From NCBI RefSeq assembly GCF_023501975.1, contig NZ_JAMFLH010000014.1, positions 1-64,000 of the forward strand: DNA of 64,000 nt. Direction: 5' to 3'. Origin of the DNA: Altererythrobacter sp. KTW20L (GTDB lineage Bacteria; Pseudomonadota; Alphaproteobacteria; Sphingomonadales; Sphingomonadaceae). Below are positions 52,950 through 57,364 of the stretch, piece after piece; the stretch's first letter is position 1; every line of letters begins with the position of its first letter. Under the pieces are notes generated by a model. It searched no databases, was not told the DNA's origin, and worked only from the letters and a program-made list of their open reading frames with translations. Made by a program: the position numbers and the translations under genes.

Positions 52950-54926
52950 ATGGCGACCCAGACAGCCGATCGAGCGGCTTCCGCAACCCCGCAGGCCGGG
53001 CCCGACAGCGTAGTCGTCCGCTTTGCGGGCGATAGCGGCGATGGCATGCAGCTTACCGGCGGGCAGTTCACCCTGTCCACCGCACTGGCGGGCAACGATC
53101 TTGCCACTTTCCCCGATTTCCCCGCCGAAATCCGCGCGCCGCAAGGCACGCTGTTCGGCGTTTCGGCCTTCCAGATCAATTTCGGCTCCAGAGAGATCAA
53201 CACCGCAGGCGACGCGCCCGACGTGCTGGTGGCGATGAACCCCGCCGCGCTGAAGACCAACCTGCAGGCCCTGAAGCCTGGCGGGCTGGTGATCATCGAC
53301 ACCGGCGAGTTCACCAAGCGCAACCTCGAAAAGGCCAAGTACGAGGTCAGTCCGCTGGATGATGGCAGCCTGGCCAAGTGGGATGTGCTGGCCTTCGACA
53401 TTTCTGCGCTGACGATCGAGGCGGTGAAGCCGTTTGGCCTCGGCAACAAGGATGCCTTGCGCTCGAAGAACATGTGGACGCTGGGCCTGGCGCTGTGGAT
53501 GTTCGACCGCGACCGGCAGCCGCTGATCGACTGGCTCAACGCCAAGTTCAAGACCAAGCCCGTTATCGCCGCCGCCAACATTGCCGCGCTCAACGCTGGT
53601 CATGCCTATGGCGAAACGGCCGAGCTGACGGGGCCGCTCAAGAAGGTCCACATTGATCCCGTGGCCGCCGAACCGGGCCTTTACCGGACCATTACCGGCG
53701 CGGAAGCCGTTTCGCTTGGCCTGGTCGCCGGTGCGCAGCTGGCTGGCCTGCCGATGTTCTTCGGCGGATATCCGATCACGCCTGCCAGCTCGATCCTCCA
53801 CCACCTCGTTCGGCTGAAGGAATTCGGCGTCACCACCTTCCAGGCGGAAGACGAAATTGCCGCGATCTGTGCCGCCATCGGCGCAAGCTGGGCAGGGCAG
53901 CTTGGCGTGACCAGTTCGTCCGGCCCCGGCATTGCGCTGAAGGGCGAAGCGATGGGCCTTGCCGTGATGACCGAGCTGCCGCTGGTGATCGTCAATTCCC
54001 AGCGCGGCGGCCCCAGCACCGGCCTGCCGACCAAGACCGAGCAGAGCGACCTGTACCAGGCGGTCTATGGCCGCAACGGCGATGCGCCGATCCCGGTCAT
54101 CTCGGCAAGCAGCCCGGGCGACGTGTTCGACTGCGCGATCGAGGCCTGCCGCATTGCCGTGCAGTACATGACGCCGGTGATCCTCCTCACCGATGGGTAT
54201 ATCGCCAATGCCGCCGAACCGTGGAAGGTGCCCGATCCGGCGAGCTACGAGCCGTTCCCGGTCCAGTTCCTCGAAGAGAAGAACGCTGGCGACACGCTGC
54301 TGCCCTACAAGCGCGATGCCAAGGGCGCGCGGCCGTGGATCAAGCCGGGTACGCCTGACCTGATGCACCGCATCGGCGGGATCGAGAAGAAGGTCGATAC
54401 CGGCAACATCGATTACAGCCCCGAAAACCACCAGATCATGACCGACGCCCGCAAGGCCAAGATCGATGGCATCGCCGTGCCCGACCAGCAGGTTTCGCAT
54501 GGCGACAAGACCGGCCACCTCGCCGTGGTGGGCTGGGGCAGCACCTATGGCCCGATCCGCCGCGCAGTGGACAATGCGCGCCGCAAGGGTCTGGCCGTAA
54601 GCCATATTCACGTGCGCAATATCTGGCCGCTGCCCGCCAACCTGGGCGAGCTGCTCGCGGGGTTCAGCCATGTGCTGATGCCCGAAATGAACACCGGCCA
54701 GTTCAAGACCGTGCTGCGCGACCAGTTGCTGGTCGATGCCGACAGCCTGACCAAGACCAGCGGCCAGCCGTTCCAGATCGCCGAACTGGACGAGGCCATC
54801 GCCCGCTATTTCGACGGAATCCCGGATAACGAAGGCGGCGAGGTCCACGCCAACACGCAGCAGTTGCCCACTCCCGAAAGTGGGCATGACGATGGATCGC
54901 TGAAGGCGACCGGAGACGCGCAATGA
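52950..54926 (+). CDS. korA: 2-oxoacid:ferredoxin oxidoreductase alpha subunit (gamma-alpha fusion)
   Basis: A 658-residue subunit. The N-terminal ~200 residues are the gamma domain (VVVRFAGDSGDGMQLTGGQF), fused to the alpha domain with GYPITPASSILHHLVRL, FQAEDEIAAICAAIGASWAG and TSSSGPGIALKGEAMGLA. With KorB it decarboxylates 2-oxoglutarate to succinyl-CoA, passing electrons to ferredoxin. The ATG at 52950 follows AGGA. Its stop overlaps korB by 4 bp. Confidence 0.93.
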   Translation: MATQTADRAASATPQAGPDSVVVRFAGDSGDGMQLTGGQFTLSTALAGNDLATFPDFPAEIRAPQGTLFGVSAFQINFGSREINTAGDAPDVLVAMNPAALKTNLQALKPGGLVIIDTGEFTKRNLEKAKYEVSPLDDGSLAKWDVLAFDISALTIEAVKPFGLGNKDALRSKNMWTLGLALWMFDRDRQPLIDWLNAKFKTKPVIAAANIAALNAGHAYGETAELTGPLKKVHIDPVAAEPGLYRTITGAEAVSLGLVAGAQLAGLPMFFGGYPITPASSILHHLVRLKEFGVTTFQAEDEIAAICAAIGASWAGQLGVTSSSGPGIALKGEAMGLAVMTELPLVIVNSQRGGPSTGLPTKTEQSDLYQAVYGRNGDAPIPVISASSPGDVFDCAIEACRIAVQYMTPVILLTDGYIANAAEPWKVPDPASYEPFPVQFLEEKNAGDTLLPYKRDAKGARPWIKPGTPDLMHRIGGIEKKVDTGNIDYSPENHQIMTDARKAKIDGIAVPDQQVSHGDKTGHLAVVGWGSTYGPIRRAVDNARRKGLAVSHIHVRNIWPLPANLGELLAGFSHVLMPEMNTGQFKTVLRDQLLVDADSLTKTSGQPFQIAELDEAIARYFDGIPDNEGGEVHANTQQLPTPESGHDDGSLKATGDAQ

Positions 54927-55969
54927 ACGAGATGACCAAAATCGAAACCACCCTCAAGGACTGGGAAACCGACCAGGAGGTGCGCTGGTGCCCGGGTTGC
55001 GGGGACTATGCGATCCTGAAGGCGGTCCAGCGCACGCTGCCGCAGCTGGGCTGTGATCCGGCCAAGACGGTGTTCATCAGCGGCATCGGCTGCTCCAGCC
55101 GGTTCCCCTATTACATGGAGACCTACGGCTTCCACACCATCCACGGCCGCGCGCCTGCTTTCGCGACTGGCGCAAAGCTGGCCAATCCGGAACTCGACGT
55201 CTGGCTGGTGACGGGCGATGGCGATGGCCTGTCCATCGGCGGCAACCACATGATGCATGTGCTGCGGCGCAACGTGAACATGCAGATCATGCTGTTCAAC
55301 AACGAGATTTATGGCCTCACCAAGGGCCAGTACTCGCCCACCAGCCGTATCGGCACCAAGAGCCCCAGCACCCCCATTGGCTCGGTCGATCGTCCGGCCA
55401 ACCCTTGCGCCTTTGCCCTGGGTGCCGGTGCGCGGTTCGTTGCGCGCGGGTTCGACGTGTCGAAGAACCTGCCCGACGTGCTGAAGGCCGCCCATGCCCA
55501 CCAGGGCGCGGCCTTCATCGAGATCTTCCAGAACTGCATCGTCTACAACAAGGACGTGTTCGATGCCTTCGCCGCGCCCAAGGGAGCGGACGATCACCAG
55601 CTGTGGCTGGCCGATGGCGAACCGATGCTGTTCGGCAGCGAGAAGACCGGCGGCGTGAAGGGCATTGCGCTTGATCGTGACCTGCTGGAACTGAAGGTTG
55701 TCGATGTGGTGGATGGGGACTGGCAGGCCGCCGGGGTGCTGGTCCACAATGTCCGCAACCGCTCTATCGCCCACATGCTCATCGAGGCGCCATTTGGCCC
55801 GTTCCCGATGGCGCTCGGCGTAATCTACGACGACCCGCGCCCGACCTATGAAAGCGCCGTCGTGGAAGAGCGCGCCAAGTCGAGCGAAGGCAAGAGTGCC
55901 AACCTCGCCAAGCTGCTCGCCAAGGGCCAGACCTGGACCGTGGAGGACACCGGCGGGCATCCGGCTTGA
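54923..55969 (+). CDS. korB: 2-oxoacid:ferredoxin oxidoreductase beta subunit
   Basis: A 348-residue thiamine-diphosphate subunit. WCPGCGDYAILKAVQRTL begins it, FISGIGCSSRFPYYMETYGFHTIHGR binds an iron-sulphur cluster or cofactor region, and VTGDGDGLSIGGNHMMHVLRRN is the TPP motif. Completes the two-subunit Kor enzyme. It is followed 26 bp later by the GxxExxY cassette. Confidence 0.95.
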   Translation: MNEMTKIETTLKDWETDQEVRWCPGCGDYAILKAVQRTLPQLGCDPAKTVFISGIGCSSRFPYYMETYGFHTIHGRAPAFATGAKLANPELDVWLVTGDGDGLSIGGNHMMHVLRRNVNMQIMLFNNEIYGLTKGQYSPTSRIGTKSPSTPIGSVDRPANPCAFALGAGARFVARGFDVSKNLPDVLKAAHAHQGAAFIEIFQNCIVYNKDVFDAFAAPKGADDHQLWLADGEPMLFGSEKTGGVKGIALDRDLLELKVVDVVDGDWQAAGVLVHNVRNRSIAHMLIEAPFGPFPMALGVIYDDPRPTYESAVVEERAKSSEGKSANLAKLLAKGQTWTVEDTGGHPA

Positions 55970-55976
55970 TTTAGTC

Positions 55977-56426
55977 TCACACGAAGACACGAAGATGTCG
56001 CGACCGGACGATCTGGAGAGCCTCGCACGGATCGCTGTGGATTGTGGATTCCAGTTGCATCGTGATCTTGGCCCGGGGTTGCTGGAAGGCGCTTATGAAG
56101 CGCTCCTTGGCGGACTGATTTCGCAAGCCGGTTATGCCGTCGAACGACAGGTCCCCATGACCATGCGGTACAAGGGCGTTGTCGTTGACAACGCATTCAG
56201 GATCGATTTGCTCGTCGAGCGCAAGCTGGTGATCGAGTTGAAATCCATCGAAAAATTGGCACCTGTCCACGGCAAGCAGGTCCTGACCTATCTGCGCCTG
56301 ATGGACCTGCCCCTAGGTCTGCTGATGAATTTCGGGCAGGCCACTTTCAAGGACGGCCTGAAGCGGGTTGCCAACGATTATTGGGGGCGCATCGGTTAGG
56401 CTCGACATCTTCGTGTCTTCGTGTGA
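55977..56426. repeat. 24-bp perfect inverted repeats flanking the GxxExxY gene
   Basis: Left arm 55977-56000 and right arm 56403-56426 are exact inverse complements over 24 bases; the pairing stops sharply on both sides (56001/56402 and 55976/56427). The left arm holds ACACGAAGACACGAAG and the start ATG with the first codons of the gene; the right arm begins 3 bp after the stop. The shared core contains two copies of ACACGAAG. Confidence 0.95.
55995..56399 (+). CDS. GxxExxY family protein in an inverted-repeat cassette
   Basis: A 134-residue protein. LHRDLGPGLLEGAYEALLGGL carries the GxxExxY motif (GLLEGAY), and FRIDLLVERKLVIELKSIEKL looks like a PD-(D/E)XK nuclease core with D, then E-x-K; HGKQVLTYLRLMDLPLGLLMNFG completes the family. 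Function is unknown; a nuclease role is inferred. The gene is bounded exactly by a perfect 24-bp inverted repeat, and its start codon sits in the left arm, so transfer as a unit is likely. Codon use is milder in G+C than the korB before it. Confidence 0.9.
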   Translation: MSRPDDLESLARIAVDCGFQLHRDLGPGLLEGAYEALLGGLISQAGYAVERQVPMTMRYKGVVVDNAFRIDLLVERKLVIELKSIEKLAPVHGKQVLTYLRLMDLPLGLLMNFGQATFKDGLKRVANDYWGRIG

Positions 56427-56437
56427 ATCAATCTTCG

Positions 56438-57364
56438 ATGGACAACCTCACCCACTCCCTCACCGGCGCGCTGATTGGCCAGTGCGGGCTGAAGAAGAAG
56501 ACCGGCCTTGCCATGCCCGCGCTGATCATCGGCGCAAACCTGCCCGATGTGGATGCGGCGTGTTTCTTCTGGCTCGACGGGGTGGAGCATCTGGCTTTCC
56601 GTCGCGGGATCACCCACGGGCCGCCCGCGTGGTTCCTGCTGCCGCTGATGCTGGCGGGCTTGCTCTATGGCTGGGACCGGTGGCAGGCGAAACGCGGCCA
56701 AGGCCGGTTTGGGCGGCCCGACAGCCGCCTGCCGGTGAACTTCAAATGGCTCTACCTCCTCAGCCTGATCGGCTGCCTCAGCCATCCGGCCCTCGACTGG
56801 ATGAATGTCTATGGTATCCGCCTGCTCGCCCCGTTCAGCCAGCAATGGTTTTATGGCGACGTGCTGTTCATCATCGACCTGTTCCTGTGGGTGCTCCTGG
56901 TCGGCGGCGTATGGTTCTCGCTCCGCCGCGAGAAGCGTGGGGGTGACTGGATCAAGCCCGCGCGCGCGGCGATGGCCGTGATGCTCGCTTACATCGGGCT
57001 TAACGCCGCGATCACCCATGCACGGGAAGCCGAACTGGCGGGCGAGGGCGCGGTGGTGATCGCCAGCCCGCCGCCGGTCCTGTTCTGGCAGCGCGACATG
57101 ATCGTGGGCAGTGATGGCCGCTACACCATCAACGGCGAACCGGTCGGCGATTTCGACCTGACCGAGAGCGACAAGCCGCACATCGCCAAGGCCGTGCCCG
57201 AAGCTGCGCCCTTCCTGTTCTGGTCGCGGGTGCCGATGGTCCGTGTTGCCGATGACGGGCGCTATCTCCTAACCGACGCGCGTTATCTGGGGCGCGGCGA
57301 GGGAGGGTTCACGGTGGAGCTTCCCGCCGAAGTCTGCGTCCCGCCGGAACTGCCCGTACCCTAG
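56438..57364 (+). CDS. YdjM-like membrane-bound metal-dependent hydrolase
   Basis: A 308-residue membrane protein. NLTHSLTGALIG starts it, and HGPPAWFLLPL, SHPALDWMNVYGIRLL carry conserved His and Asp of the LexA-regulated YdjM family. About four membrane helices occur before a C-terminal cytoplasmic or periplasmic domain. The ATG at 56438 lies 12 bp from the right arm of the cassette repeat. Confidence 0.85.
   Translation: MDNLTHSLTGALIGQCGLKKKTGLAMPALIIGANLPDVDAACFFWLDGVEHLAFRRGITHGPPAWFLLPLMLAGLLYGWDRWQAKRGQGRFGRPDSRLPVNFKWLYLLSLIGCLSHPALDWMNVYGIRLLAPFSQQWFYGDVLFIIDLFLWVLLVGGVWFSLRREKRGGDWIKPARAAMAVMLAYIGLNAAITHAREAELAGEGAVVIASPPPVLFWQRDMIVGSDGRYTINGEPVGDFDLTESDKPHIAKAVPEAAPFLFWSRVPMVRVADDGRYLLTDARYLGRGEGGFTVELPAEVCVPPELPVP

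Follow-up and report, generated by a model that had tools for sequence, protein, structure and literature searches.

In the REPIN-RAYT system a RAYT gene, which is chromosomal, single-copy and vertically inherited, is accompanied by paired palindromes that are present in many copies elsewhere in the genome (PMC8049555). A different arrangement is found in the intervening sequences (IVS) of 23S rRNA, where the S23 ORF lies between inverted terminal repeats of about 28 bp, and the IVS has long been suspected to be selfish (PMC4990558). Rickettsia palindromic elements are palindromes of ~150 bp that are able to sit in frame in coding genes (PMC10969869), and the cyanobacterial STRR, the Xanthomonas GGGAATC and the Beggiatoaceae TAACTGA repeats are short tandem heptamers, partly arranged as convergent pairs, for which those parts of the source papers that describe them report no gene partner (PMC4692102, PMC4679880).

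When the GxxExxY locus in the window (the whole 64-kb stretch of DNA that was analysed) was compared with these systems, it was closest to REPIN-RAYT, in that a few-copy, vertically inherited gene is framed by a palindromic unit of which gene-less paired copies occur elsewhere in the genome. However, the GxxExxY protein is a predicted PD-(D/E)XK protein and not an HUH/Y1 tyrosine transposase, its arms are tandem 8-nt iterons and not GTAG/CGTC-tagged REP hairpins, and unlike REPINs the GxxExxY pairs nest in each other and occur across many phyla. Lacking both an HUH transposase and REP arms, the GxxExxY system is not a member of REPIN-RAYT. With the 23S rRNA IVS it shares a small ORF between inverted repeats, but the IVS has an S23 fold and lies in rRNA whereas the window element has a GxxExxY gene and 8-nt iterons and is intergenic, and thus it is not an IVS. 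The likeness to Rickettsia palindromic elements is one of behaviour, namely in-frame sites in coding genes such as those of nested pairs in dnaE2, but the GxxExxY palindromes differ in having iteron arms and a linked gene for a predicted nuclease. The period of 7 in the heptamer repeats is like that of the arms of S23 genes and unlike the 8-nt GxxExxY arms. Literature searches on nested or Geobacter repeats, sphingomonad elements and four-helix-bundle repeats gave nothing relevant. The features of the window locus are as follows.

54923..55969, + strand: korB, 2-oxoacid:ferredoxin oxidoreductase beta subunit, the left neighbour
55977..56000, + strand: left arm, TCACACGAAGACACGAAGATGTCG, made up of TC, two 8-nt iterons (ACACGAAG ACACGAAG) and ATGTCG, and overlapping the start codon ATG at 55995-55997
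55995..56399, + strand: GxxExxY gene, 134 aa, predicted PD-(D/E)XK (Cas4/RecB-like) nuclease
56403..56426, - strand: right arm, the exact reverse complement of the left arm, starting 3 nt past the stop codon
56438..57364, + strand: right neighbour ORF, which adjoins korB in some element-free relatives

The preliminary description had claimed a perfect 24-bp inverted repeat around a GxxExxY gene that was inserted between korB and another gene and had no transposase, and all of this was borne out: the arms match at 24 of 24 positions with 402 nt between them, the ATG is within the left arm, the TAG stop is 3 nt ahead of the right arm, korB and the ORF at 56438-57364 lie on either side, and there is no transposase ORF between the arms. 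The right neighbour had no match in an NCBIfam search, and korB is the conserved left boundary of this GxxExxY site in several genera. The RRAG motifs in the left arm may be Shine-Dalgarno-like. Among the perfect inverted repeats of the window whose arms are no more than 1 kb apart, the 24-bp repeat is the longest, and the core 18-mer of its arms is found in the window at these two places only, where 0.03 occurrences are expected. The runner-up is a 17-bp perfect inverted repeat at 54324-54340 and 55139-55155, between two kor genes, which is probably due to chance.

To see the arms in a wider setting, 92 GxxExxY loci with both flanks were surveyed, taken from relatives and from named genomes of many phyla (Alphaproteobacteria, Verrucomicrobiota, Desulfobacterota, Planctomycetota, Bacteroidota, Chloroflexota, Cyanobacteriota and others), and flanking repeats were scored with +1 for a match and -2 for a mismatch, a score of at least 16 being called strong. 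Strong flanking inverted repeats were present at 69 of the 92 loci, compared to 1 of 331 displaced windows of the same loci and about 14 of 270 cross-locus pairings, which bears out the view that gene and repeats form one unit. Several of the low-scoring loci still had arms that were degenerate, more distant or one-sided. The consensus of the arms is TC+(RCRCRRAG)2-3, with the tandem 8-mers close to the start and the stop, and the letters at the R positions differ between loci. On the outer side of the TC, three semi-conserved bases are followed by flanks rich in T, at both ends of the element (95 elements). Because the same type of repeat flanks most GxxExxY genes elsewhere, the repeat in the window is not a product of chance; the preliminary description had allowed for a chance repeat, and also for GxxExxY genes of relatives that lack repeats in the same locus, and neither turned out to be the case. 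This looks like a previously unrecognised partnership of a gene with mobile palindromes across many bacterial phyla.

The window protein matched both TIGR04256 GxxExxY (118.7 bits against a cut-off of 35, E=1.7e-34) and PF13366 PDDEXK_3 (117.7 bits against a cut-off of 22, E=4.6e-34) and thus belongs to both families, whose descriptions make no mention of repeats. An alignment of 83 sequences showed that E30, D70, E80 and K82, which cover the E of GxxExxY and the D..ExK residues, are invariant and that the QxxxY motif (Q94, Y98) is nearly so. A sequence search for a solved relative found none, but an AlphaFold2 model built from the 83 sequences had a pLDDT of 93, and its closest solved fold was that of the Cas4 protein SSO0001, with a VIA-align Z of 9.1, which is modest, and an rmsd of 5.1 over 107 residues. 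The next structural matches were several Cas4, RecB-type and Holliday-junction-resolvase nucleases. The modelled fold together with the D...ExK residues and the QxxxY motif places the protein in the PD-(D/E)XK superfamily as a predicted Cas4/RecB-like member, in line with the nuclease proposed in the preliminary description, and it is presumably catalytically active as a nuclease. Identity as a defence system was considered and rejected, as PADLOC gave weak Cas4 matches only and a PHROG search gave no match.

The arms are also found without the gene. Two further inward-facing pairs with the same arms and no gene are present in the window's genome (C23:182425-182553 and C35:60192-60317). Arm copies were counted by pattern match only, with the 18-mer TCRCRCRRAGRCRCRRAG as probe in 149 relatives, and the same pattern read backwards, which served as control, gave 2 matches in total over these relatives. 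Of the 15 genomes with a GxxExxY gene 12 had gene-less copies, as did 10 of the 134 without it (p=1.5e-9), and in a single-genus comparison they were present in 6 of 6 species with the gene and in 3 of 34 without (p=2e-5), these three having one match each; the p-values are optimistic because the genomes are related, and the comparison in a single genus lessens the effect of kinship. When 46 further GxxExxY genomes were examined, 1045 arm matches were counted, with a maximum of 169 in one genome and including the arms of the GxxExxY genes themselves, whereas the reversed pattern gave 0; 8 of the 46 had no match to the TCRCRCRRAGRCRCRRAG 18-mer. Gene-less pairs were many in G065, G081, G034, G006 and G020 and absent in G086 and G122, both of which have the gene. 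Conversely, about 10 arm copies, many of them in outward-facing pairs, were counted in each of G040 and G059, where no GxxExxY gene was detected. Tight outward-facing pairs, 9-17 bp apart (CTTCGCGTGA-N-TCACGCGAAG), are frequent in these two genomes (L336, L338, L339, L340, L321).

The gene-less palindromes have inward-facing arms, are about 60-500 bp long and fold as very stable hairpins (z -5 to -14), and a search against known RNA families gave none above the gathering score. In the five testable genomes, the true pairing of gene-less arms with the arms of the resident gene gave the best fit out of 120 permutations. The inserts of unlinked gene-less pairs in G065 resemble one another, and therefore the pairs are copies. 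That they are deletion derivatives of the gene was rejected, as the inserts have no similarity to the GxxExxY gene. Pairs of one arm subtype often lie in the middle of a pair of another subtype, in up to three layers. Two side observations concern the surroundings of the arms: both gene-less copies of the window's genome lie within ~100-120 bp of a separate ~110-bp repeat, a family with some ten or more members in that genome (L005:1296-1401, L007:1254-1377), and thirteen arm matches are clustered within about 9 kb of one contig at G698:C37:28496-37705 (around L166).

Some gene-less pairs sit inside a coding gene. Two loops of DnaE2, an error-prone DNA polymerase, contain nested pairs in two related species (G020 and G022), and the reading frame stays open; at these points the palindromes of close relatives are decayed or of a different kind, and many others have none. 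In-frame nested iteron palindromes of up to three layers were seen in dnaE2 at L320, L333, L374 and L403. The window's own genome (L399) has in the same two DnaE2 loops a different and unrelated palindrome family of the CCCTCTCCCCTTCAGGGGAGAGGG type.

The gene itself behaves differently from the pairs. Six species of several genera (the window species and five others) have the gene at the korB site, 22 species have it at a second conserved site, and a well supported branch of the tree separates the proteins of one site from those of the other. The preliminary description had asked whether relatives without the cassette exist, and they do: in some of them korB and the next gene are adjacent. 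There are 1-3 GxxExxY genes per genome. Carriage by plasmids or phages as a vehicle was rejected, since the gene was found in 4 of 72,556 plasmids, in 0 phages and in 1 viral contig. Two close relatives of the window protein (L133 and L030) lie at other locations by the flank test, and hence moves of the gene may happen, though rarely. No transposition event was caught between near-identical genomes, and no precise empty site was resolved. Target-site duplications, which the preliminary description had proposed to look for at the flanks, were absent from all 95 elements; the main duplication-like excess (2 nt, offset 1) was, by inspection, the palindromic GC of the GCGCTC subtype. With no target-site duplication and no transposase ORF the element is neither a classical insertion sequence nor a DDE MITE. 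The GxxExxY gene is thus largely vertically inherited and not a recent traveller, and a freely moving minimal cassette, as proposed in the preliminary description, is not supported, as the gene keeps to the korB site and the second site in many species and it is the arm pairs without a gene that are dispersed.

The arms at the second site are about 95% identical when the two of one locus are compared and about 70% identical when the same arm is compared between species, and none of 5000 partner permutations reached the observed concordance. For the korB site alone the same test, which with n=3-4 is underpowered, gave 840 and 222 of 5000 permutations reaching the observed value. The arms of a locus evolve in concert, and the perfect repeat in the window, being kept by concerted evolution, is therefore no sign of recent arrival. 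Recent insertion as its cause was rejected, as the korB site is common to six species and the second-site arms agree within loci. At L303 (G065:C1:1087590-1087767) the second-site GxxExxY gene of G065 is directly preceded by a gene-less pair and lacks a clear right arm.

The explanation that we favour, with somewhat more belief than doubt, is a pair that works like REPINs and RAYT, in which a largely vertical gene for a Cas4/RecB-like nuclease goes with palindromes that depend on it in trans and are spread by it. One part would be the short, mostly vertically inherited GxxExxY gene framed by inverted arms of the TC+(RCRCRRAG)2-3 plan, and the other the set of pairs in the genome that have the same arms, facing inward, and no gene. 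The protein would recognise the iteron arms and cut their hairpin or cruciform, or cut at the arm ends, and the cutting would promote the copying of pairs to other locations, loops of other palindromes among them, so that GxxExxY would have the role that RAYT has for REPINs, with an unrelated enzyme. Judged from sequence it is plausible that the arms are bound or cut by the protein, as the preliminary description had suggested. We infer this action on the arms from the co-occurrence of gene and copies, the matching of arms and their concerted evolution, and by the same token it is presumably GxxExxY rather than a host factor that spreads the gene-less pairs. The main rival, which we hold to be rather unlikely, is that some unrelated host or transposase activity, or template switching in replication, spreads the palindromes as non-autonomous elements, and that the GxxExxY gene once landed between two arms and was kept there as a passenger. 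It would agree with the lack of an encoded transposase, with the many arms and no gene in G040 and G059, and with the S23 genes, of unrelated fold, that lie between similar inverted iteron arrays, and concerted arm evolution could come from template-switch repair of imperfect palindromes. What a passenger would not lead one to expect is that gene and copies co-occur and that arm subtypes match within genomes, and GxxExxY genes lie mostly between such arms in many phyla. Since S23, an unrelated protein, has the same layout, the layout alone does not identify the nuclease as the mover.

The position of the iterons over the ribosome-binding region and the start codon, and the tandem 8-mers that would suit repeated protein contacts, fit a reading in which GxxExxY or a regulator binds them, thereby autoregulating or protecting its own gene, and the dispersed pairs are regulatory sites, but we give this a low probability, as the second arm past the stop, the nested pairs, the dispersed copies with shared inserts and the insertions within the dnaE2 coding sequence are left unexplained by it. 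An explanation at the RNA level, in which the transcribed arms base-pair with each other and RNase III or the like processes them, limiting the harm of an insertion as in the 23S rRNA intervening sequences, seems to us improbable to much the same degree. The very stable hairpins of the gene-less copies speak for it, as does the S23 gene of the Coxiella IVS, which lies between terminal inverted repeats of ~28 bp that are cut by RNase III (PMC4990558). However, the window element is intergenic and outside rRNA, the two insertions in dnaE2 do not interrupt its reading frame, which would be needless if they were removed, and an rRNA from which a segment is excised stays broken. A hairpin at the transcript end, which the preliminary description had offered as an alternative, is unlikely to be the main role because there is an arm at either end of the gene and the arms are also found where the gene is missing.

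The parallel with S23 goes beyond the IVS. S23 four-helix-bundle genes lie between inverted 7-nt iteron arrays whose letters differ from those of the GxxExxY arms, and a score of at least 16 was reached at 15 of 30 S23 loci of Pseudomonadota and 11 of 29 of other genomes, mostly of other phyla (26 of 59 in all). The iterons at these loci (L242-L271, L344-L373) include GTAGGCA, GTGAGTA, GTGAGGG, AGTTAGC and others. At L357, in Anabaena catenula, an S23 gene has a long array of GGAGTCA heptamers and an inverted copy after the gene; these heptamers appear to resemble the cyanobacterial STRR repeats. Tentatively, and with more doubt than confidence, we propose a general class in many phyla in which a tiny non-transposase protein encoded between inverted iteron arms spreads gene-less palindromes in trans, its proposed members being the GxxExxY nuclease with 8-nt iterons and the S23 four-helix bundle with 7-nt iterons, and its products the STRR-type heptamers and other orphan palindromes. 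Such systems may be selfish or domesticated two-part systems. If the parallel holds, the S23/IVS protein and the short tandem heptamers may have one explanation. For the GxxExxY family, a widely distributed and functionally unnamed nuclease family gains a concrete candidate role, and the dispersed palindromes of bacteria, even those inside coding genes, gain a candidate partner enzyme.
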